A stretch of 64,000 nt of DNA from Devosia sp. FJ2-5-3 (lineage in GTDB: Bacteria > Pseudomonadota > Alphaproteobacteria > Rhizobiales > Devosiaceae), in the NCBI RefSeq assembly GCF_029201545.1, contig NZ_CP104007.1, positions 1,646,501 to 1,710,500 on the forward strand, given 5' to 3'. Within the stretch, counting starts at the first letter, position 1; every line of letters starts with the position of its first letter. A program made the translations under genes and the position numbers. Below, in pieces: positions 37,531 through 59,041 of the stretch. The notes under the pieces were generated by a model. That model made no database searches and was not told where the DNA came from. It saw only the letters and a program-made list of their open reading frames with translations.

Positions 37531-37545
37531 CGGCAGTTTTTGCCA
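37531..37545. promoter_or_regulatory. FlbD-like enhancer palindrome upstream of flgE
   Basis: CGGCA-gtttt-TGCCA. Same architecture as sites at 50279 and 57246-57274. It lies about 100 bp upstream of the sigma-54 promoter at 37633, the normal distance for an NtrC-type activator. Assignment to FlbD is inferred. Confidence 0.55.
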
Positions 37546-37632: not shown

Positions 37633-37648
37633 TGGCACTGTGCTTGCA
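37633..37648 (+). promoter_or_regulatory. Sigma-54 promoter of flgE
   Basis: TGGCAC-tgtgc-TTGCA has the full -24/-12 consensus with GG and GC exactly ten bases apart. The predicted start lies near 37660, about 40 bp before flgE. This is the best promoter match in the window. Confidence 0.88.
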
Positions 37649-37701: not shown

Positions 37702-39447
37702 ATGGGTATTTTTGGCGCTCTTCAAAGTGCGGTATCGGGTCTCAAGGCGCAGTCGCACGCCATGGAGAACATTTCCGGCAATATCGCCAACTCTCAGACC
37801 ATCGGCTACAAGCGGATTGATACCAGCTTCGTCGACATGATCGCCGACGCCCCGGTCAAAAGCCAGGTGGCAGGCGCTGTCTCGGCTTTCTCGCGCTCGA
37901 TGAACACGCTGCGCGGCGACATCCAGAATGCCGACACCCAGACCTATATGGCCCTCAACGGCAATGGCTTCTTCGTCACCGAGAAGGCCGATGGCAGCGC
38001 CGGCACATTCTACACCCGCCGTGGCGATTTCGACGTCGACCGCAATGGTTATCTGGTCAACGGCGCGGGCTATCGCCTGACCGGTCTTGATATGAGCAAT
38101 GGGGTTGTTACCGGTTCCGTCGCCAAGGCCATCCAGATCGACAATTCCTTCCTGCCGGCGAAGAAGTCGACCACAATCAACTATCAACTAAACCTTCCGC
38201 AAAACCCCAAGACGGCGGCTTATGTGTCCACCACGCCGGGTAGCGAATTGCTCAAGCCATGGGGCTACAAGGCTTCGCTCCTCGATCCGGCTGCGGTGAA
38301 TAGCCCCTCTTTTGAAGGGAATGCTGCAGATGCTACCGATTCAGCAGATACGCTGGTGGCGACAGATGATGTCATCAAGGTCCAAATTGGTACCATCGTG
38401 CGTGAATATGTTCTGGACACAGACAATACAGCGTCAGTGACTGCGCCTCAGATCAAGGTCAATGCTGGTGGTACGCTCGGAGAGATGCTGAGTGCTATCC
38501 AGGCTGATCTGCGCGCCAATGGTGGGCCCGATGCGAGCGGGGTTGTTGTCGGCATCAATGATGATGGCAATGTGAGTGTTGATTTTGTTGGTAACTATCG
38601 CACCGGTGTTGAAATCTCGGGCACGGGTGCTGCCAAGCTGGGAATAGTGGACGACCAAGAGGCCGCGGCCGGTGAGGTTGTCGATATCGCGGGCTCGGAC
38701 TCTGAACTGTTCATCAAGGAGTCTATTTCGGGCGGCGGGGTTACCGTCTACTCGCAGACCGGGGAGCCCATCAACATTCAAATGCGCTGGGCGAAGACCA
38801 GCAATGCCGCCGGCGCGGAAGCTTGGAGCCTCTACTACGCTTCCGATTCCAGCCCTGGTGCCGCGAAGGCCTGGAGCAAGATCGCCGACTACACTTTCAA
38901 CGAGGGTCAGCTAGCCAAAGTTACCGGCGCCCCGGGTGTGGAAGTCAATGGCAATGAGCGCGTGACCATTGGCAATGTCACAGTGAATGGCCGTAACTTT
39001 ACCGATCTGTCTATTGACCACGGCCTCAAGGGCATGACTCAGTTCGCCGACAATAGCGGCATGGCCACCACCACGACCCTCAAGCAGGACGGTTATGGTG
39101 CGGGCGAGTTCATCTCGGTGGGCATCTCCGACGATGGCCGCGTGGTGGCTTCCTACACCAATGGCGAGAACCGCGAAGTGGCGCAGATCATCACCGCCAG
39201 CTTCTCCAATGCCAACGCCCTCAAGCGTGGCGATGGCGGTGCCTACACCATCACCTCCGAGTCCGGCGAGCCCATCATCGACCAGACGGGCCAGGGCATT
39301 GTCGGTTCTTCGACCGAAGCCTCCAACACCGATATTTCTGAAGAATTCACCAAGCTGATCGTCACCCAGCAGGCCTATTCGGCCAACACCAAGATCGTGA
39401 CCGCAGCCGATGAGATGCTTCAGGAAGCCCTCAACATGATCCGCTGA
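37702..39447 (+). CDS. flgE: Flagellar hook protein FlgE
   Basis: A 581-residue hook subunit secreted by the flagellar type III apparatus. The N-terminal rod motif GIFGALQSAVSGLKAQSHAMENISGNIANSQTIGYKR and the C-terminal coiled part (FTKLIVTQQAYSANTKIVTAADEMLQEALNMIR) form the conserved core. TSFVDMIAD and the FVTEKADG segment are typical of FlgE rather than FlgG. The central domain is larger than in the 400-residue enteric protein. The stretch 38290-38760 has visibly lower GC and different codon use, which marks a variable surface module. It is preceded by a sigma-54 promoter. Confidence 0.95.
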   Translation: MGIFGALQSAVSGLKAQSHAMENISGNIANSQTIGYKRIDTSFVDMIADAPVKSQVAGAVSAFSRSMNTLRGDIQNADTQTYMALNGNGFFVTEKADGSAGTFYTRRGDFDVDRNGYLVNGAGYRLTGLDMSNGVVTGSVAKAIQIDNSFLPAKKSTTINYQLNLPQNPKTAAYVSTTPGSELLKPWGYKASLLDPAAVNSPSFEGNAADATDSADTLVATDDVIKVQIGTIVREYVLDTDNTASVTAPQIKVNAGGTLGEMLSAIQADLRANGGPDASGVVVGINDDGNVSVDFVGNYRTGVEISGTGAAKLGIVDDQEAAAGEVVDIAGSDSELFIKESISGGGVTVYSQTGEPINIQMRWAKTSNAAGAEAWSLYYASDSSPGAAKAWSKIADYTFNEGQLAKVTGAPGVEVNGNERVTIGNVTVNGRNFTDLSIDHGLKGMTQFADNSGMATTTTLKQDGYGAGEFISVGISDDGRVVASYTNGENREVAQIITASFSNANALKRGDGGAYTITSESGEPIIDQTGQGIVGSSTEASNTDISEEFTKLIVTQQAYSANTKIVTAADEMLQEALNMIR

Positions 39448-44926: not shown

Positions 44927-45023
44927 GGAATTCGATAAAACTTGAACTAAATTGCGCGTTTTCGCGAGAGGGGGCCGCAGCTTTTGATCCCTAAACCTGT
45001 TCTCGCCGGCAAGGAAGCCGGAA
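44927..45023 (+). promoter_or_regulatory. Conserved structured leader of flagellin gene 1
   Basis: A 97-base block almost identical (about five differences by eye) to 46243-46339 before the second flagellin. It contains complementary GCGAGA and TCTCGC arms 30 bases apart and a small hairpin CCGGC-aagga-AGCCGG near the 3' end, ahead of AGGAAG. Conservation with structure suggests an RNA element, plausibly the FlbT target. Confidence 0.65.
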
Positions 45024-45054
45024 GAAAAAATCTCTGGAACAGGAAGTCCAAACA

Positions 45055-46167
45055 ATGAGCGCAGTAAATCTCTCGTCGAACGCCCGCACCGGTCTCACCG
45101 TCCTGCGTAACGTCGCAGAACAGATGGCCACGACCCAGAACCGTCTGGTTACCGGCAAGGCCGTCAACAGCCCGCTCGACAATGTCTCCAAGTTCTTTAC
45201 TGCAGCCTCGATGGACTCTCGTGCTGCTTCCATTGACTCGCTGATGGACAATATCAACGCGGCGCAGTCCTCGATGAAGGCCGCCAGCGAAGGTATCAAG
45301 GGCATTCAGGGCCTGATCAAGGAAGCCCGCAGCCTCACCAGCCAGGCGCTGACCGCGTCGGCAAACAATGTCTCGGTCGCCGGCACCAACACCGTAACCG
45401 ACACGACGGCAATCACTGCCGCTGATACGCTGACTCTGACCACCGACAGCGGCACCTACACCTACACCGCTCCTGGTGGTGGCGGCACAGTTCAGGGCCT
45501 GATCGACGGCATCAATGGTGACGCAGATGTGGGCGTGAAAGCCTCGCTCGTTGACGGCAAGCTGACGCTGACCGGCTCGAAGGGTGAGAATGTCACCATT
45601 GCAGGCACCGGCACCGGCCTTTCCGCTGCTGGCCTGACCGCAGGCGTCGAGAAGCCCGCCAATAACGCCACCCGCGAGGGCCTGGCCAAGCAGTTCGACG
45701 CCCTGCGCTCCGAAATCACCCGCATCGCCAAGGATGCAGGCATCAATGGCACCAATCTTCTGAACGGTGACAAGATCCGCCTGGCACTGAACGAGGATGG
45801 TTCTTCGTCGACCACAATCGAGGGCACAGCAGTGAGCGCAGACACCTTGAAGATCGACGCCGCCGAAGGCGACTGGCAGTCCGACACCGCCGTGAATGAG
45901 GCGCTCGACGCCCTGATCGCAGCCGGCGACTCGCTCCAGGCAACTGCAGCCTCGTTCAGCTCGAACCAGTCCATCATTGCCGCCCGCAAGGATTTCAATG
46001 CGTCGCTGTCCGACATCCTCAAGGCCAGCTCGACCAATCTGACGGCCGCCGACATGGATCAGGAAGCCGCCAATCTGGTTGCGCTCCAGACCCGTCAGCA
46101 GATGGCAACCACGGCGCTGTCGATCATGCAGTCCTCGGAATCGACCGCTCTGAGCCTGCTGCGCTAA
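45055..46167 (+). CDS. Flagellin (copy 1)
   Basis: A 370-residue filament subunit. The conserved N-terminus SAVNLSSNARTGLTVLRNVAEQMATTQNRLVTGKAVNSP and C-terminus ALSIMQSSESTALSLLR form the D0/D1 helices. The centre (residues ~105-205) is a beta-rich variable insert with DTLTLTTDSGTYTY and SLVDGKLTLTG. It is paralogous to the gene at 46371 and nearly identical to it outside this insert. The start follows AGGAAG. A terminator 22 bp after the stop suggests a monocistronic unit. Confidence 0.95.
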   Translation: MSAVNLSSNARTGLTVLRNVAEQMATTQNRLVTGKAVNSPLDNVSKFFTAASMDSRAASIDSLMDNINAAQSSMKAASEGIKGIQGLIKEARSLTSQALTASANNVSVAGTNTVTDTTAITAADTLTLTTDSGTYTYTAPGGGGTVQGLIDGINGDADVGVKASLVDGKLTLTGSKGENVTIAGTGTGLSAAGLTAGVEKPANNATREGLAKQFDALRSEITRIAKDAGINGTNLLNGDKIRLALNEDGSSSTTIEGTAVSADTLKIDAAEGDWQSDTAVNEALDALIAAGDSLQATAASFSSNQSIIAARKDFNASLSDILKASSTNLTAADMDQEAANLVALQTRQQMATTALSIMQSSESTALSLLR

Positions 46168-46242: not shown

Positions 46243-46339
46243 GGAATTAGATAAAATTTGAAATAAATTGCGCGTTTTGGCGAGAGGGGGCCGCAGCTTT
46301 TGACCCCTAAACCTGTTCTCGCCGGCAAGGAAGCCGGAA
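46243..46339 (+). promoter_or_regulatory. Conserved structured leader of flagellin gene 2
   Basis: Second copy of the 97-base block described at 44927-45023. The arms GGCGAGA and TCTCGCC pair one base better than in copy 1. Sequence before position 46243 is unrelated to copy 1, so the conservation starts sharply. Confidence 0.65.
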
Positions 46340-46370
46340 CAACAAATCCCAGGAACAGGAAGTCAATAAA

Positions 46371-47498
46371 ATGAGCGCAGTAAATCTTTCGTCGAACGCC
46401 CGCACTGGTCTTACCGTTCTGCGTAACGTTGCAGAACAGATGTCCACCACGCAGAGCCGTCTGGTTACCGGCAAGGCCGTAAACAGCCCGCTCGACAATG
46501 TCGCTAAGTTCTTTACTGCCGCTTCGATGGATACACGCGCTGCTTCCATTGACTCCCTGATGGACAATATCAACGCCGCACAGTCCTCCATGAAGGCCGC
46601 GAGCGAAGGCATCAAGGGTATCCAGGGCCTGATCAAGGAAGCCCGCAGCCTCACAAGCCAGGCGCTGACCGCCACGGCCTCCGAGAAGGCAAATGTTGCC
46701 GGCACAGCAGACGTGACTGCCGCAACTGTTGTGACGGCTGCATCCCCTGCACCGGCAATGACCGCCGGTCAGACCATCACGGTTGGTAACGGCACCACGA
46801 CGGCCACTTACACTGTGGTGGCCGGTGACACGGTCCAGGACGTGATGGATGAAATCAACGGCACAGCCGATCTCAATATCACCGCGTCGATCAAGGACGG
46901 CAAGCTGGCCTTCGAATCTGCCGGCAACATCACGATCGGTGGCACGGGCGTTGCCGGTCTCGGCCTGACAGCTGGTACAACCGAGTTCAAGCCAAACGCT
47001 GCCCGCGAAGCTCTTGCCAAGCAGTTCGACGCTCTGCGGTCGGAAATCACCCGCATCGCCAAGGATGCCGGCATTAACGGCACCAATCTCCTGGCCGGTG
47101 ACAAGATCAAGCTTGCCCTCAACGAAGACGGCACGTCCTCGACGACGATCGAAGGGACCGCGGTGAGTGCAGAAACCCTCAATATCGCCGAGGCTGGCGC
47201 CAGCTGGCAGACCGATGAAGCAGTCAACGACGCACTGACTTCTCTGATTGCCGCCGGCGACTCCCTCCAGGCGACCGCTGCTTCGTTCAGCTCAAACCAG
47301 TCGATCATCTCGGCCCGTAAGGAGTTCAACACTTCGCTGTCCGACATTCTCAAGGCTAGTTCGACCAATCTGACCGCTGCAGACCTGGATCAGGAAGCCG
47401 CCAATATGGTTGCGCTCCAGACCCGCCAGCAGATGGCAACTACGGCGCTGTCGATCATGCAGTCCTCGGAAACCACCGCTCTGAGCCTGCTGCGCTAA
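46371..47498 (+). CDS. Flagellin (copy 2)
   Basis: A 375-residue flagellin, almost the same as the gene at 45055 in its N- and C-terminal helices (SAVNLSSNARTGLTVLRNVAE, MQSSETTALSLLR). It differs in the central insert: SPAPAMTAGQTITVGNGTTT and SIKDGKLAFESAGN replace the copy 1 sequence. This pattern fits duplication followed by divergence of the surface-exposed domain. It has its own leader and terminator. Confidence 0.95.
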   Translation: MSAVNLSSNARTGLTVLRNVAEQMSTTQSRLVTGKAVNSPLDNVAKFFTAASMDTRAASIDSLMDNINAAQSSMKAASEGIKGIQGLIKEARSLTSQALTATASEKANVAGTADVTAATVVTAASPAPAMTAGQTITVGNGTTTATYTVVAGDTVQDVMDEINGTADLNITASIKDGKLAFESAGNITIGGTGVAGLGLTAGTTEFKPNAAREALAKQFDALRSEITRIAKDAGINGTNLLAGDKIKLALNEDGTSSTTIEGTAVSAETLNIAEAGASWQTDEAVNDALTSLIAAGDSLQATAASFSSNQSIISARKEFNTSLSDILKASSTNLTAADLDQEAANMVALQTRQQMATTALSIMQSSETTALSLLR

Positions 47499-48639: not shown

Positions 48640-48953
48640 CAACGGTATACTCCTGTAGCACGCGATTGGGTTTTCTGGGCGGCTTCCTGCATGGCGATCA
48701 TGTCGCCAAGCAGCTGGTCGGCAATGCCGAGGCCGCCATTTTGAGCCATTGTGTTGGCCAGTTGTTCGGCCTGCATGGAGCGCCAGGTCTCCTCGCCGAA
48801 GCCACCACCAAAGCCGTTTTCGGATTTGACGGTCGCGAACATTTCCTTGGTCAGCAGGTTGAGGAACACGCCCTCGAGGTCTTCTGCCTGCTTCTTCAGC
48901 CGGTTGAGCTGCGCCGGCTCGAGGGTGGTCTGGATAGGGGAGGTGATATTCAT
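48639..48953 (-). CDS. flgJ: Rod-binding protein FlgJ, short alphaproteobacterial form (CheL-like)
   Basis: A 104-residue protein equal to the N-terminal rod-binding domain of FlgJ: LKKQAEDLEGVFLNLLTKEMFATV, GFGGGFGEETWRSMQAEQLANTMAQNGGLGIADQLLGDM. The C-terminal muramidase domain of enteric FlgJ is absent, as is normal in alphaproteobacteria, where the gene has been called cheL. A separate enzyme must open the peptidoglycan for the rod. It overlaps flgI and the flgN-like gene by one base each (TGATG). Confidence 0.92.
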   Translation of the reverse strand: MNITSPIQTTLEPAQLNRLKKQAEDLEGVFLNLLTKEMFATVKSENGFGGGFGEETWRSMQAEQLANTMAQNGGLGIADQLLGDMIAMQEAAQKTQSRATGVYR

Positions 48954-50077
48954 CAGAGCACCTCGATTTCGGCCTGCAGGGCGCCGGTGGCCTTGATGGC
49001 CTGGAGGATGGCGATCAGATCGCGGGGCGACAGGCCGAGGGCGTTTAGGCCATCGACGAGTTGCTGCAAGGTGACGCTTTCCGGCACCGTCTGCAGCGCC
49101 GTGTCGGTCTGGGTGACGTTGAGATCGGTGTTCGGCACCACTTCGGTCTGGCCCATCGAGAAGGGATTGGGCTGCGAGACTTCCGGGTTCTCGGCAATGG
49201 AGACCGTGAGGTTGGACTGGGCAACGGCAACGCTCGACACGCGCACATCCTTGCCCATGACGATGATGCCGCTGTTTTCGTCGATCACGATCTTGGCGGA
49301 CTGGTCGGTCTGGACGATCAGCTGCTCGATATCGGTCAGGAGGTCGACGATATTGCCGTTGAAATTGGCCGGCAGGGTCAGGCGGACGGTTGCCGGATCC
49401 TCGGGCACGGCCGTCGGCGCACCGATGAAATCATTGATCACCATGGCGATGCGGCGGGCCGTGGTGAGGTCGGCATTGCGCAGCGACAGGCGCAGGGAGT
49501 GCATGGACCCCAGTTCGAAGCCGATTTCGCGTTCGATAAGGGCGCCCGAGGAAATGCGGCCTGTCGTCGGCACGCCGGAGACGATGCTGGCGGCGTCGCC
49601 TTGGGCCTTGAAGCCGTTGATCGCAACCGGACCCTGGGCGATCGCGTAGACTTCACCGTCGGCGCCGACCAGCGGGGTCACCAGCAACATGCCGCCCTGG
49701 AGGCTGTCCGCATCGCCGAGTGCCGAAACGGCCACGTCCATGCGCGAGCCCTGGGTGGCGAAGGCCGGCAAATTGGCCGTCACCATCACGGCGGCGACAT
49801 TGGCGGTGCGGACGTTTTCGCCATTGGTGTTCACGCCAAGCCGCTCGAGCATGGATTGCAGCGACTGGCGCGTGAAGGGGGAATTGTTGAGGCTGTCGCC
49901 CGTGCCGTCGAGACCGACCACGAGGCCGTAGCCTACCAGCTGATTCTCGCGAATGCCTTCGACATCCACGATGTCCTTGATCCGCGCAGGGGCAGCATTT
50001 GCCTGGCTGACGGGTGTCAGGACCATGGCGGCGCTGAGTGCGGCGGCTAGGACGGTACGAAGGAAGCGATATTGCAT
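48953..50077 (-). CDS. flgI: Flagellar P-ring protein FlgI
   Basis: A 374-residue periplasmic protein forming the P-ring around the rod. Signal peptide MQYRFLRTVLAAALSAAM ending at NAAPA, then the invariant RIKDIVDVEGIRENQLVGYGLVVGLDGTGDS and near the C-terminus SVTLQQLVDGLNALGLSPRDLIAILQAIKATGAL. First gene of the flgI-flgJ-flgN-like operon, with a sigma-54 promoter about 60 bp upstream at 50135-50150. Confidence 0.96.
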   Translation of the reverse strand: MQYRFLRTVLAAALSAAMVLTPVSQANAAPARIKDIVDVEGIRENQLVGYGLVVGLDGTGDSLNNSPFTRQSLQSMLERLGVNTNGENVRTANVAAVMVTANLPAFATQGSRMDVAVSALGDADSLQGGMLLVTPLVGADGEVYAIAQGPVAINGFKAQGDAASIVSGVPTTGRISSGALIEREIGFELGSMHSLRLSLRNADLTTARRIAMVINDFIGAPTAVPEDPATVRLTLPANFNGNIVDLLTDIEQLIVQTDQSAKIVIDENSGIIVMGKDVRVSSVAVAQSNLTVSIAENPEVSQPNPFSMGQTEVVPNTDLNVTQTDTALQTVPESVTLQQLVDGLNALGLSPRDLIAILQAIKATGALQAEIEVL

Positions 50078-50134: not shown

Positions 50135-50150
50135 TGCGAGAACCGTGCCA
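50135..50150 (-). promoter_or_regulatory. Sigma-54 promoter of the flgI operon
   Basis: On the minus strand TGGCAC-ggttc-TCGCA keeps GG-N10-GC spacing with one deviation from TTGCA. Start of transcription would fall near 50124, some 45 bp before flgI. Confidence 0.78.
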
Positions 50151-50256
50151 GTTTGCTGAAATTTCTTTAAGCCGCTGAAAAATATAAGCAAATGGCGTGT
50201 GATGGGGCTCCGCGTGCCCTAAATGTCTGGCTGCCAAGCAATTCTTGCCGCCTTCA

Positions 50257-50272
50257 TTAAGCGGGTATTAAC
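50257..50272 (+). promoter_or_regulatory. CtrA box upstream of fliX
   Basis: TTAA-gcgggta-TTAAC is a perfect match to the TTAA-N7-TTAAC consensus, about 45 bp before the fliX ATG, where CtrA activates class II flagellar genes in Caulobacter. Confidence 0.75.
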
Positions 50273-50278
50273 CATGTC

Positions 50279-50293
50279 GGGCAGATTTTGCCG
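50279..50293. promoter_or_regulatory. FlbD-like palindrome between flgI and fliX
   Basis: GGGCA-gattt-TGCCG, with a weaker AAGCA-attct-TGCCG at 50236-50250. They lie about 90-145 bp upstream of the flgI sigma-54 promoter and overlap the fliX promoter region, so one site could activate flgI and repress fliX. Confidence 0.55.
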
Positions 50294-50315: not shown

Positions 50316-50744
50316 ATGCAGGCCGTGCGTATCGAGTCCGCCAATCGCCTGTCGAGTGTAGCAAGTCGCGGTGCCGTAGGCCGCTATTCTGGGGGGCAGG
50401 CGTTCGCGCTTGCCGGAGTAAGCGCCCCGGCGCGTCCGTCGGCGGCCTCTCCGGTGATGCCGCTGGCCGCCCTCGATGCCATTTTGGCGCTGCAGGGAGT
50501 GGGTGACGCCCTGACGGGGCGCCGCCGGGCCGTCAAGCGCGGAGCATCGATGCTCGATGTGCTCGAGGAGGTCAAAGCCGATCTCCTGGTTGGGCGGATC
50601 ACACCCGAGCGCCTCGACATTCTGGCTGAACAGCTGCAGTCGATGCGGGACAGGGTCGACCCGGGCCTCGATGGGGTCATCGACGAAATCGAGCTTCGGG
50701 TCCGGATCGAACTGGCCAAGCTTGGTCGCTTTCCGCCGCTTTAG
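50316..50744 (+). CDS. fliX: Flagellar assembly regulator FliX
   Basis: A 142-residue protein, the length of Caulobacter FliX. The N-terminal third is low-complexity and Ala/Ser-rich. The conserved part is MPLAALDAILALQGV, RRRAVKRGASMLDVLEEVKADLLVGR and the ending DPGLDGVIDEIELRVRIELAKLGRF. FliX couples early basal-body assembly to FlbD, the sigma-54 activator. Its presence makes an FlbD-type circuit likely, although flbD itself is not in the window. The start at ATG 50316 gives the family-typical N-terminus; GAGGG lies two bases upstream. A CtrA box precedes it. Confidence 0.88.
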   Translation: MQAVRIESANRLSSVASRGAVGRYSGGQAFALAGVSAPARPSAASPVMPLAALDAILALQGVGDALTGRRRAVKRGASMLDVLEEVKADLLVGRITPERLDILAEQLQSMRDRVDPGLDGVIDEIELRVRIELAKLGRFPPL

Positions 50745-56346: not shown

Positions 56347-57084
56347 TCAGGCGTTGGCGTCGCCGAGGCGCTGGATGGCGTTGCGGCGCAACTCATCCTG
56401 CTTCTGGGCCAGCGAGGCGATGGATTCGTAGGTGCGGGTGACGCGGATCATTTCGGACATTTCGGCGACGCCCGAGACATTTGAGCGCTCGACGAAACCC
56501 TGCATGACGCGGGAATTGGCGTTGGCGACGGGCGTGCCGCCGGAGAAAAGGTTGTTGCCCTGGCGGATCAGTTCCTGCGGCTCGTCGAACTCGACGATGC
56601 GCAGCTTGCCCTTGGGGCCTTCGCTGGACGACACGGAGCCGTCTGCGGCAATGGTGATGTCGGTTTCTTCGGGGCCGAACTGGATGGGGCCGCCTTCGCC
56701 GAGAATGGGGTTGCCGGAGAGATCGACCAGCGTGCCGGTATTGTTGAGCTGGAAGGAACCGGCGCGGGACCAGCGCTCGCCGCCCTGCGTCTGCACGGCA
56801 AAGAAGCCGTCGCCCATGATCGCGACGTCGAGCGGGCTACCGGACTGCACCATCGGACCGTTGGCAAAATCCTGGATCGTCGCCCAGTCCTGCACATAGC
56901 GCAGGGACTGGTCTTCACCGGAAAAGCCGCGATGGGACGCGACTGGCATCTTGTATTCCTCGAACAGCATCTGTTCGGCCTTGAAGCCCGTCGTATTCAC
57001 GTTGGCGATATTGTTCGCCAGCATGTCCATCTGCCGCTGCAGCGCCATCTGGCGCGAGAGGTTGATGAGTTGTGCGTTTTCCAT
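56347..57084 (-). CDS. flgF: Proximal rod protein FlgF
   Basis: A 245-residue rod protein. MENAQLINLSRQMALQRQMDMLANNIANVNTTGFKAEQMLFEEYKMPV is the alphaproteobacterial FlgF start. FVERSNVSGVAEMSEMIRVTRTYESIASLAQKQDELRRNAIQRLGDA is the closing helix. ATG 57084 is chosen; the longer frame from 57171 crosses the sigma-54 promoter. First gene of the flgF-flgG-flgA-flgH operon. Confidence 0.95.
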   Translation of the reverse strand: MENAQLINLSRQMALQRQMDMLANNIANVNTTGFKAEQMLFEEYKMPVASHRGFSGEDQSLRYVQDWATIQDFANGPMVQSGSPLDVAIMGDGFFAVQTQGGERWSRAGSFQLNNTGTLVDLSGNPILGEGGPIQFGPEETDITIAADGSVSSSEGPKGKLRIVEFDEPQELIRQGNNLFSGGTPVANANSRVMQGFVERSNVSGVAEMSEMIRVTRTYESIASLAQKQDELRRNAIQRLGDANA

Positions 57085-57154: not shown

Positions 57155-57170
57155 TGCAGAAACCATGCCA
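57155..57170 (-). promoter_or_regulatory. Sigma-54 promoter of the flgF operon
   Basis: On the minus strand TGGCAT-ggttt-CTGCA keeps the GG-N10-GC spacing. It sits about 70 bp before flgF, with two enhancer-like palindromes 75-105 bp further upstream. Confidence 0.75.
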
Positions 57171-57245: not shown

Positions 57246-57274
57246 CGGCAATTCCTGCCGGGCAAAATGTGCCC
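57246..57274. promoter_or_regulatory. Two abutting FlbD-like palindromes between flgF and fliL
   Basis: CGGCA-attcc-TGCCG at 57246-57260 and GGGCA-aaatg-TGCCC at 57260-57274 share one base. Both are perfect inverted repeats. Tandem sites are typical for cooperative NtrC-family activators. Confidence 0.6.
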
Positions 57275-57288
57275 AAAAAGTGGCAATA

Positions 57289-57304
57289 GTAACCACTCGT
57301 TAAC
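57289..57304 (+). promoter_or_regulatory. CtrA-like box upstream of fliL
   Basis: GTAA-ccactcg-TTAAC matches TTAA-N7-TTAAC with one change, about 70 bp before the fliL ATG. In Caulobacter fliLM is a CtrA-dependent class II operon. Confidence 0.5.
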
Positions 57305-57371
57305 CAAGATGGCATTAGCTGTGATCAGGCCGGAATCGTCCGGAAACACGCGGCATTTGTTAGGGTTCGTC

Positions 57372-57875
57372 ATGGCGGCAGAAGCAGAAATCGGTGGCGA
57401 AGCGCCCGCCAAAAAAGGCATCAACAAGCTCTTCGTCATAATTGGTGCTGCAGCGGCCGTCGTGATCGTCGGTGGAGCGGGTCTCTTCTTCTTCCTGTCC
57501 TCGGGCAATTCGGCCGACGCGGCCGCCGCTCACGATGGAGCAGGGCATGGCGAGGCCGCCATCGTCACCGATACCTTCATCTTCAATCTCGAACCGATGA
57601 TGGTCAATCTCAACAGCGCCGAAGGCCAGCAGAACTATATGAAGCTGACCGTCGCGCTCGAAGTTGCCGACCAGGAGACGATGACAGCCATCCAGCCGCG
57701 CCTCGCCAAGGTCGTGGATGCATTCCAGGTCTACATGCGCGAGCTGCGCAAGAGCGATCTGGAAGGTTCCGCCGGCATCTATCGCCTCAAGGAAGAGCTG
57801 CTGCGCCGCGTCAACCTGGCCGTTTATCCGGCCCGGGTCGAAAGCGTCCTCTTCAAGGAAATCCTGGTGCAGTAA
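57372..57875 (+). CDS. fliL: Flagellar basal body-associated protein FliL
   Basis: A 167-residue single-pass inner-membrane protein near the stator. The cytoplasmic start (MAAEAEIGGEAPAKKG) is followed by the membrane helix LFVIIGAAAAVVIVGGAGLFFFL. The periplasmic FliL domain shows FIFNLEPMMVNLN, YMKLTVALEVADQETMTAIQPRLAKVVDAFQVYMRELRKSDLEGSAGIYRLKEELLRRVN. The start codon is placed at ATG 57372; earlier frames are in the promoter. Its stop overlaps fliM (TAATG). Confidence 0.95.
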   Translation: MAAEAEIGGEAPAKKGINKLFVIIGAAAAVVIVGGAGLFFFLSSGNSADAAAAHDGAGHGEAAIVTDTFIFNLEPMMVNLNSAEGQQNYMKLTVALEVADQETMTAIQPRLAKVVDAFQVYMRELRKSDLEGSAGIYRLKEELLRRVNLAVYPARVESVLFKEILVQ

Positions 57876-59041
57876 TGGCTGGTCCTTCCGATCAAGACAA
57901 ACTCTCCGAAGACTGGGGCCTTGACGCCCTGACCGGAAGCGGTGGCGGGTTCGATATTCCTGCTGCCGACGATCCGGGCATGGAAGATTGGGCGGCGATG
58001 CTGCAGGCCGGCGATGGCGGCAGCAGCGACGGTATCGACCGTGTGCTCAATCAGGACGAGATCGACAATCTGCTCGGCTTCGATGCCGCGGCCGCCAACA
58101 ATGTCGAGCTGTCGGGCGTTCAGGCGCTCATCAATTCGGCCCTGGTGAGCTATGAGCGCCTGCCGATGCTCGAAATCGTCTTCGACCGCCTCGTGCGGCT
58201 GGCGACGACCTCCCTGCGCAATTTCACCTCCGACAACGTCGAAGTCTCGCTGGACTCGATCTCATCGGTGCGTTTCGGCGACTATCTCAATTCCATTCCG
58301 TTGCCCGCCATCCTTTCGGTCATCAAGGCCGAGGAATGGGGCAATTATGGCCTGCTCACCGTCGACAGCAATCTCATCTATTCGATGATCGACGTGCTGC
58401 TGGGCGGTCGCCGCAGCGGTGGCAATGTCCGCGTCGAGGGGCGTCCCTATACAACCATCGAAATGGCGCTGGCACAGCGCATGATCGAGCTGATCCTCGA
58501 TGATACGCACCGGGCCTTCGAGCCGGTGACCCAGGTCAATTTCAAGCTCGAGCGCATGGAGAGCAATCCGCGCTTTGCCGCGATCTCCCGCCCGAACAAT
58601 GCGGCCATCCTGATCGAACTGCGGATCGAGATGGATGATCGCGGCGGCAAGATCGAAATCCTTCTGCCCTACGCGACGATCGAGCCCATCCGCGACCAGC
58701 TCCTGCAGATGTTCATGGGTGAAAAGTTCGGCCGCGATCCGATCTGGGAAGGCCATCTCGCCACCGAGATCTACCAGGCCGACGTCGAGATCGAGGCAGT
58801 GCTGCACGAGCAGGACCTGCCGCTGGCGCGCCTGATCAACATCAAGCCGGGCGAGACGATCATGTTCGAGCGCGCCCCGACGGATCCGATCCAGCTGCGC
58901 TGCGGCGATGTCGATCTTACCCAGGCGATCATGGGTCATATTGGAAATCATGTTTCGGTGCGTGTTACGCGCCCGCTCAACCCGCCCAAGGTCACGATGG
59001 CGGCGTTTGAAGCGATCGACGAGTCTATGGAAGGGCGATAA
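57875..59041 (+). CDS. fliM: Flagellar motor switch protein FliM
   Basis: A 388-residue C-ring protein that binds phospho-CheY and sets rotation. The N-terminus is longer and acidic (LSEDWGLDALTGSGGG), then DRVLNQDEIDNLLGF, the usual FliM/FliG-binding entry. The middle domain has ALVSYERLPMLEIVFDRLVRLATTSLRNFTSDNVEVSL and GNYGLLTVDSNLIYSMIDVLLGGRR, and the C-terminal SpoA-like domain LARLINIKPGETIMFER. It overlaps fliL by one base and is followed three bases later by the DUF6468 gene. Confidence 0.96.
   Translation: MAGPSDQDKLSEDWGLDALTGSGGGFDIPAADDPGMEDWAAMLQAGDGGSSDGIDRVLNQDEIDNLLGFDAAAANNVELSGVQALINSALVSYERLPMLEIVFDRLVRLATTSLRNFTSDNVEVSLDSISSVRFGDYLNSIPLPAILSVIKAEEWGNYGLLTVDSNLIYSMIDVLLGGRRSGGNVRVEGRPYTTIEMALAQRMIELILDDTHRAFEPVTQVNFKLERMESNPRFAAISRPNNAAILIELRIEMDDRGGKIEILLPYATIEPIRDQLLQMFMGEKFGRDPIWEGHLATEIYQADVEIEAVLHEQDLPLARLINIKPGETIMFERAPTDPIQLRCGDVDLTQAIMGHIGNHVSVRVTRPLNPPKVTMAAFEAIDESMEGR

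Follow-up and report, generated by a model that had tools for sequence, protein, structure and literature searches.

A recurrent palindrome at flagellar promoters of Devosia, a probable operator of FlbD

Flagellar genes and palindromes of the locus

The window, by which we mean the whole stretch of 64,000 nucleotides analyzed from Devosia sp. FJ2-5-3, carries the following flagellar genes around the sites considered here.

37702 to 39447, plus strand: flgE, hook protein (NCBIfam: FlgEFG subfamily passes its cut-off, flgE models do not)
48953 to 50077, minus strand: flgI, P-ring protein (NCBIfam, above cut-off)
50316 to 50744, plus strand: fliX, FlbD partner (matches to FliX families only, 98.5 bits against a cut-off of 153, E 4e-28)
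56347 to 57084, minus strand: flgF, rod protein (start taken from the HMM match)
57372 to 57875, plus strand: fliL (NCBIfam, best model 167.7 bits, under its cut-off of 197)
57875 to 59041, plus strand: fliM (NCBIfam, above cut-off)

The intergenic DNA holds copies of a palindrome of the form (C/G/A)GGCA-N5-TGCC(G/C/T) with an A/T-rich center. On re-reading the sequence, all copies reported in the original prediction, the weak one included, were found where it had placed them.

37531 to 37545: palindrome CGGCA-GTTTT-TGCCA, presumed enhancer of flgE
50236 to 50250: weak palindrome AAGCA-ATTCT-TGCCG, upstream arm of a bracket around the fliX box
50279 to 50293: strong palindrome GGGCA-GATTT-TGCCG, fliX/flgI region
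57246 to 57260: palindrome CGGCA-ATTCC-TGCCG, first of an abutting pair
57260 to 57274: palindrome GGGCA-AAATG-TGCCC, its partner, offset by 14 bp

The members of the abutting pair overlap by one base (57260), giving a 14-bp period. Two more perfect copies lie just past the window (window-equivalent positions 65628 and 65724), upstream of flgB (135 bits against a cut-off of 142), which is accompanied by flgC (153 against 102), fliE, fliR, and flhB. Flagellar genes also lie at 3.62 Mb; that region adds a perfect copy at 3,620,429, upstream of fliK-flgD, and another at 3,623,981, upstream of fliF-fliG-fliH, with flbD and flhA further along. The consensus CT(C/A)GGCAAAWTTTGCC(G/T)AG was derived from 26 sites upstream of fliF in the class.

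The core GGCAN5TGCC occurs 12 times in the window, a count attained by none of 100 shuffles (2.69 expected). Four of these copies are in flagellar intergenic DNA and the remaining eight (7431, 10227, 24500, 45408, 46688, 49991, 51458, and 61094) are inside long reading frames. Genome-wide, on the single contig of 4.19 Mb in which the window occupies positions 1,646,501-1,710,500, there are 166 copies against 90 of the backwards pattern. Six intergenic regions of flagellar genes (flgE, fliX/flgI, flgF/fliL, flgB, fliK, and fliF), spanning by our estimate about 1.25 kb together, contain eight perfect copies; the genome rate predicts 0.05. A motif no commoner at flagellar promoters than elsewhere in the genome, the outcome against which the original prediction was set, is thus not what we found.

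Chance or base composition is left with almost no probability as the source of the pattern. The window and its right neighbor (93.5 kb) have 62% G+C, and copies outside the flagellar clusters are plentiful: among the 22 examined, which are all copies within 20 stretches picked for A/T-leaning centers, 18 sit within long frames whose third positions are rich in G+C. At flagellar promoters, though, shuffled sequences, the reversed pattern, and genomes that lack FlbD all give far lower counts, which refutes chance for the intergenic flagellar copies. None of the 22 off-cluster palindromes has a CtrA box nearby, and the only one near a loose sigma-54 match is in a coding frame. Four off-cluster copies are possibly intergenic (L301:849, L302:849, L306:801, and L308:834, in this genome near 1,305,248; 1,508,248; 2,534,300; and 3,377,733) and have neither CtrA box nor sigma-54 site. 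They are possible candidates for non-flagellar FlbD targets.

Neither a palindrome nor a sigma-54 site was seen upstream of the flagellin genes of the window. The two flagellin genes have near-identical leaders (44930-45055 and 46250-46371) with a CCGGC...GCCGG hairpin-like sequence, possibly an element of post-transcriptional control. Each flagellin coding region also contains one GGCAN5TGCC (45408-45420 and 46688-46700), perhaps by chance from codon use.

Palindromes upstream of sigma-54-type promoters

Three promoters of the sigma-54 type accompany the palindromes in the window.

37633 to 37648, plus strand: sigma-54-type promoter TGGCACTGTGCTTGCA of flgE
50135 to 50150, minus strand: sigma-54-like promoter TGGCACGGTTCTCGCA of flgI (same place in the correctly oriented loci of relatives)
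57155 to 57170, minus strand: sigma-54-like promoter TGGCATGGTTTCTGCA of flgF

The palindromes had been described as lying 75-145 bp upstream of such promoters, and the distances bear this out. Counted as bases between the palindrome core and the sigma-54-like site (TGGCA type), they are 76 and 90 at flgF, 129 at flgI (86 for the weak copy), and 88 at flgE; the fliK copy is 98 bp from a promoter of the TGGCA type. The flgE regions of relatives likewise have a palindrome 72-102 bp before a sigma-54-like site. The composite palindrome-N72-102-TGGCAN8GCA has 176 matches in 60 of 61 genomes (this genome and 60 of the same genus; abutting pairs can count twice) vs. five for the reversed pattern. 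Of the 60 loci (about 3 kb each) extracted for this composite and for the CtrA composite below, 55 contained at least one of the flagellar genes used as queries, as did 15/15 additional loci picked by hand, mostly composite matches. Outside the genus the sigma-54 composite is weak, with 16 matches vs. seven reversed controls in 40 genomes.

With N6 in place of N5 the composite gave 51 matches in the 61 genomes vs. 176, and no exact match in the genome of the window. Read by eye, 34 of the 59 N6 rows from 101 genomes are one recurrent locus, present once per genome in many relatives; the other same-genus N6 matches number 17. Like the Devosia flagellar sites, this locus has palindromes upstream of a sigma-54-like promoter. 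Unlike them, the palindromes are 14 bp long (GGCAAG-NN-CTTGCC type), two of them are separated by 33 bp (four of the five loci read, L104-L108 from G034, G009, G045, G010, and G004), and tctC-tctB lies downstream (in L108, the single locus identified). It is presumably the target of another sigma-54 activator.

Palindromes around CtrA-type boxes

The opposite sides of the fliX/flgI and flgF/fliL intergenic regions carry boxes of a different kind.

50257 to 50273, plus strand: CtrA-type box TTAAGCGGGTATTAACC of fliX
57289 to 57305, plus strand: CtrA-like box GTAACCACTCGTTAACC of fliL, with one mismatch

The motif TTAA-N7-TTAACC is exact at fliX and flgB and has one mismatch at fliF (TTAA-N7-TTTACC) and at fliL (GTAA-N7-TTAACC). 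In this the four promoters resemble CtrA-dependent class II flagellar promoters; unlike in class II promoters alone, the box is joined here to a palindrome at a fixed distance. At fliX, flgB, and fliF the palindrome core begins 6-8 bp behind the box (6 bp at fliX), where the -10 region would by analogy be expected. A consensus scan found no sigma-54-like site between the palindromes and flgB or fliF. The picture of the palindromes as sigma-54 enhancers only is incomplete, since palindromes also flank CtrA-type boxes.

The composite TTAACC-N3-9-palindrome has 96 matches, in 59 of the same 61 genomes, vs. two for its reversed form. Elsewhere in the order it occurs in 17/22 FlbD-bearing and 3/18 FlbD-less genomes (Fisher p = 3e-4; this p-value and that given below for fliF are rough because related genomes are not independent), with 29 matches vs. 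three controls in the former and three vs. four in the latter. In this comparison G099 (739 bits) was placed among the FlbD-bearing genomes, and three of the 18 FlbD-less genomes are below 90% complete. Class-wide, the composite is near background (50 matches in 44/289 genomes vs. 40 reversed controls). This rules it out as a feature of the whole class, and the combination of CtrA box and palindrome appears to characterize the order.

Within the genus the boxes are bracketed by two copies in a regular manner. Among 30 fliX loci, which are the best FliX matches of the 79 genomes with a match and in whose choice the motif played no part, we find, relative to the start of the box, a weak copy 20 bp upstream in 29 and a perfect copy 23 bp downstream in all 30, 43 bp apart. 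Conservation is 100% in the arms of the strong copy and 54% in columns belonging to neither the box nor either copy. At its first base the weak arm has A in 15 loci, T in 14, C in one, and G in none. At fliF, a perfect copy 38-39 bp before the box and an imperfect GGTA-N5-TGCC 25 bp after it are 63-64 bp apart in 26/26 genus loci (20 placed from flbD, four via the palindrome, one beside such a match, and one from this genome). The altered base of the downstream copy is T in all 26, and the two copies are 92 and 100% conserved vs. 71%. Both copies are perfect at flgB, 93-96 bp apart in 20/20 regions; three flgB loci from other genera (L075-L077) were omitted. At flgF/fliL the pair with the 14-bp period is upstream of the box in 17/17 loci (both copies perfect in 14, one of them with a single mismatch in three), and the box reads GTAA-N7-TTAACC in 16/17 and TTAA-N7-TTAACC in 1/17. 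The flgB and flgF/fliL loci, that of this genome apart, were picked via palindrome matches, so that what is observed independently there is limited to the second copy, the box, and the spacing.

The bracket spacings (43, 63-64, and 93-96 bp) are near 4, 6, and 9 helical turns. This phasing is only suggestive: we estimate that three spacing classes would fall so near multiples of 10.5 bp by luck in a few percent of cases, and at 14 bp the abutting pair is out of phase.

A role for the repeats as hairpins in 5′ leader RNA is very unlikely. Their arms could pair into a stem of 4-5 bp with a 5-base loop, and the fliX and flgB copies behind the box are near the expected start of transcription. However, the copies upstream of four sigma-54 promoters are outside the transcripts of those promoters, the weak fliX copies are altered in one arm only (first base A, T, or C in 30/30), and the A/T center is itself symmetric in the consensus, as would suit a dimer on DNA.

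FlbD as the probable binding protein

The genome encodes an FlbD ortholog adjoining fliH (G000:C1:3627877-3629244; NF050807, about 818 bits against a cut-off of 750). It keeps the GAFTGA motif, and most positions of the FlbD recognition region, NRTHAANILGISIRTLRNKLNQY, are at least 95% identical among 31 FlbDs of the class. The sigma-54 activator domain has seven matches in the genome, five of them strong. Besides FlbD, there are four strong NtrC-family matches (GAFTGA in three of the four), of which NtrC and NtrX score above their own cut-offs and two are above none shown.

Before fliF, the palindrome follows FlbD through the class. Within a 410-bp stretch covering the fliF start and the DNA ahead of it, 26 of 40 FlbD-bearing genomes outside the genus have a perfect copy (shuffles: mean 0.47, largest 3/40). 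Spacing N5 alone is enriched in these 40 loci, the other spacings giving three for N3, one for N8, and none for N4, N6, or N7. In an enlarged set, with 460 bp per genome, 38 of 61 usable FlbD-bearing genomes have a perfect copy and 0 of 10 complete FlbD-less genomes do (p = 2e-4, computed with 62 FlbD-bearing genomes, that is, including G146, dropped for a contig end; a second fliF copy of G284 was also dropped). Here N3 occurs three times, N4 and N8 once each, and N6 and N7 not at all. The FlbD-bearing genomes are better-scoring ones rather than a random draw, each having a best FlbD match of at least some 627 bits; 750 bits is exceeded in all of the first 40 and not in several of the other 22. 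Seven genomes with divergent FlbD-like proteins and two incomplete FlbD-less genomes were set apart, and one of each has a perfect site, the FlbD-less one being 69% complete. With one mismatch allowed, the counts are 55/61 FlbD-bearing, 3/10 complete FlbD-less, 4/7 divergent, and 1/2 incomplete FlbD-less genomes. Where a perfect copy is lacking (23/61 FlbD-bearing genomes), a copy with one mismatch is present in 17 (shuffles: mean 4.06, largest nine) and absent in six. Three genomes (G238, G357, and G331) have two one-mismatch copies of the form GGCA-N5-TTCC before fliF, 21 bp, or two helical turns, apart.

A sigma-54 core requires GG and GC ten bases apart. That the palindromes are degenerate or decoy sigma-54 cores, look-alikes of TGGCA...TGC, is exceedingly improbable: the letters GGCA and TGC are indeed common to both, but GG and GC are a fixed eight bases apart in the palindrome, and it is N5 that is found before fliF in 26 of the 40 loci, against the few or no copies at every other spacing.

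FlbD is an NtrC-family activator that works with FliX, and the original prediction had assigned the palindrome to it from FliX and from location. To this are now added the FlbD ortholog, the co-occurrence of motif and FlbD in both the order and the class, and the nearly invariant DNA-binding helix of the 31 class sequences, from which we infer binding. We consider it very probable that the palindrome is an FlbD operator of the kind of the Caulobacter ftr sites, activating sigma-54 genes and repressing early promoters of the CtrA type. The alternative that it belongs to another flagellar regulator (linked to MucR, SciP, or CtrA, or another NtrC-family member), with FlbD acting elsewhere, is unlikely. 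Such a regulator would account for palindromes at CtrA-type promoters that have no sigma-54-like site, and the other strong NtrC-family matches, three with GAFTGA, offer candidates. Against it, the fliF palindrome tracks FlbD in the class (38/61 vs. 0/10), the CtrA composite tracks it in the order (17/22 vs. 3/18), and the N6 spacing marks mainly a separate locus in the genus (34/59 rows). A variant of this alternative, in which the regulator is gained and lost jointly with FlbD, may apply.

According to passages in PMC3930126 and PMC3096577, Caulobacter FlbD activates middle genes and also late genes, and represses fliF via ftr sites (ftr4), with FliX in control; a passage in the latter links IHF to the class III and IV flagellar genes. 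PMC6180460 describes the Rhodobacteraceae that it compares as lacking FlbD. The Devosia arrangement resembles the FlbD/ftr system of Caulobacter crescentus in having FlbD and FliX, sites at enhancer distance from middle sigma-54 promoters, and a site at the early fliF promoter. The likeness to ftr lies in the genes and in the placement of the sites, and the Devosia sites were mapped from sequence alone. A switch of this kind is already known for FlbD; here it is mapped in another bacterial group, with an unusually regular layout. A search of open-access papers that named Devosia listed none that mentions the genus. The bracketed layout of strong and weak copies may be new.

With the palindrome as its predicted operator, FlbD would act as an enhancer-binding protein at flgE, flgI, flgF, and fliK-flgD, turning middle genes on from sites 76-129 bp ahead of their sigma-54-type promoters. 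Repression in addition to activation is suggested by the palindromes that flank the CtrA-type boxes at flgB, fliF, and the fliX and fliL sides. Judging from position and the Caulobacter precedent, FlbD beside the boxes at fliX, flgB, fliF, and perhaps fliL would block early promoters after completion of the basal body; the strong fliX copy behind its box is presumed to be in a repressor position. The fliF site is upstream of the region holding flbD itself. The brackets with their conserved imperfect arms suggest cooperative or looped binding and tuned affinity. A more specific scheme is possible, yet we hold it to be rather doubtful: Devosia FlbD may combine activation with phased, looping repression, its affinity set by the conserved imperfections, and close fliX and flgB before its own operon. 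The CtrA box of each of three early promoters would then lie between a pair of FlbD dimers bound to roughly one face of the DNA, the enhancer copies would meanwhile fire the sigma-54 genes, and the fliF operon, which appears to hold flbD, would be the last to close.

These results give a sharply defined predicted operator for FlbD together with a list of its putative targets. As CtrA-type boxes and presumed FlbD sites stand at fixed spacing in one bacterial order, the order in which early genes are shut off and middle genes switched on would become testable there.
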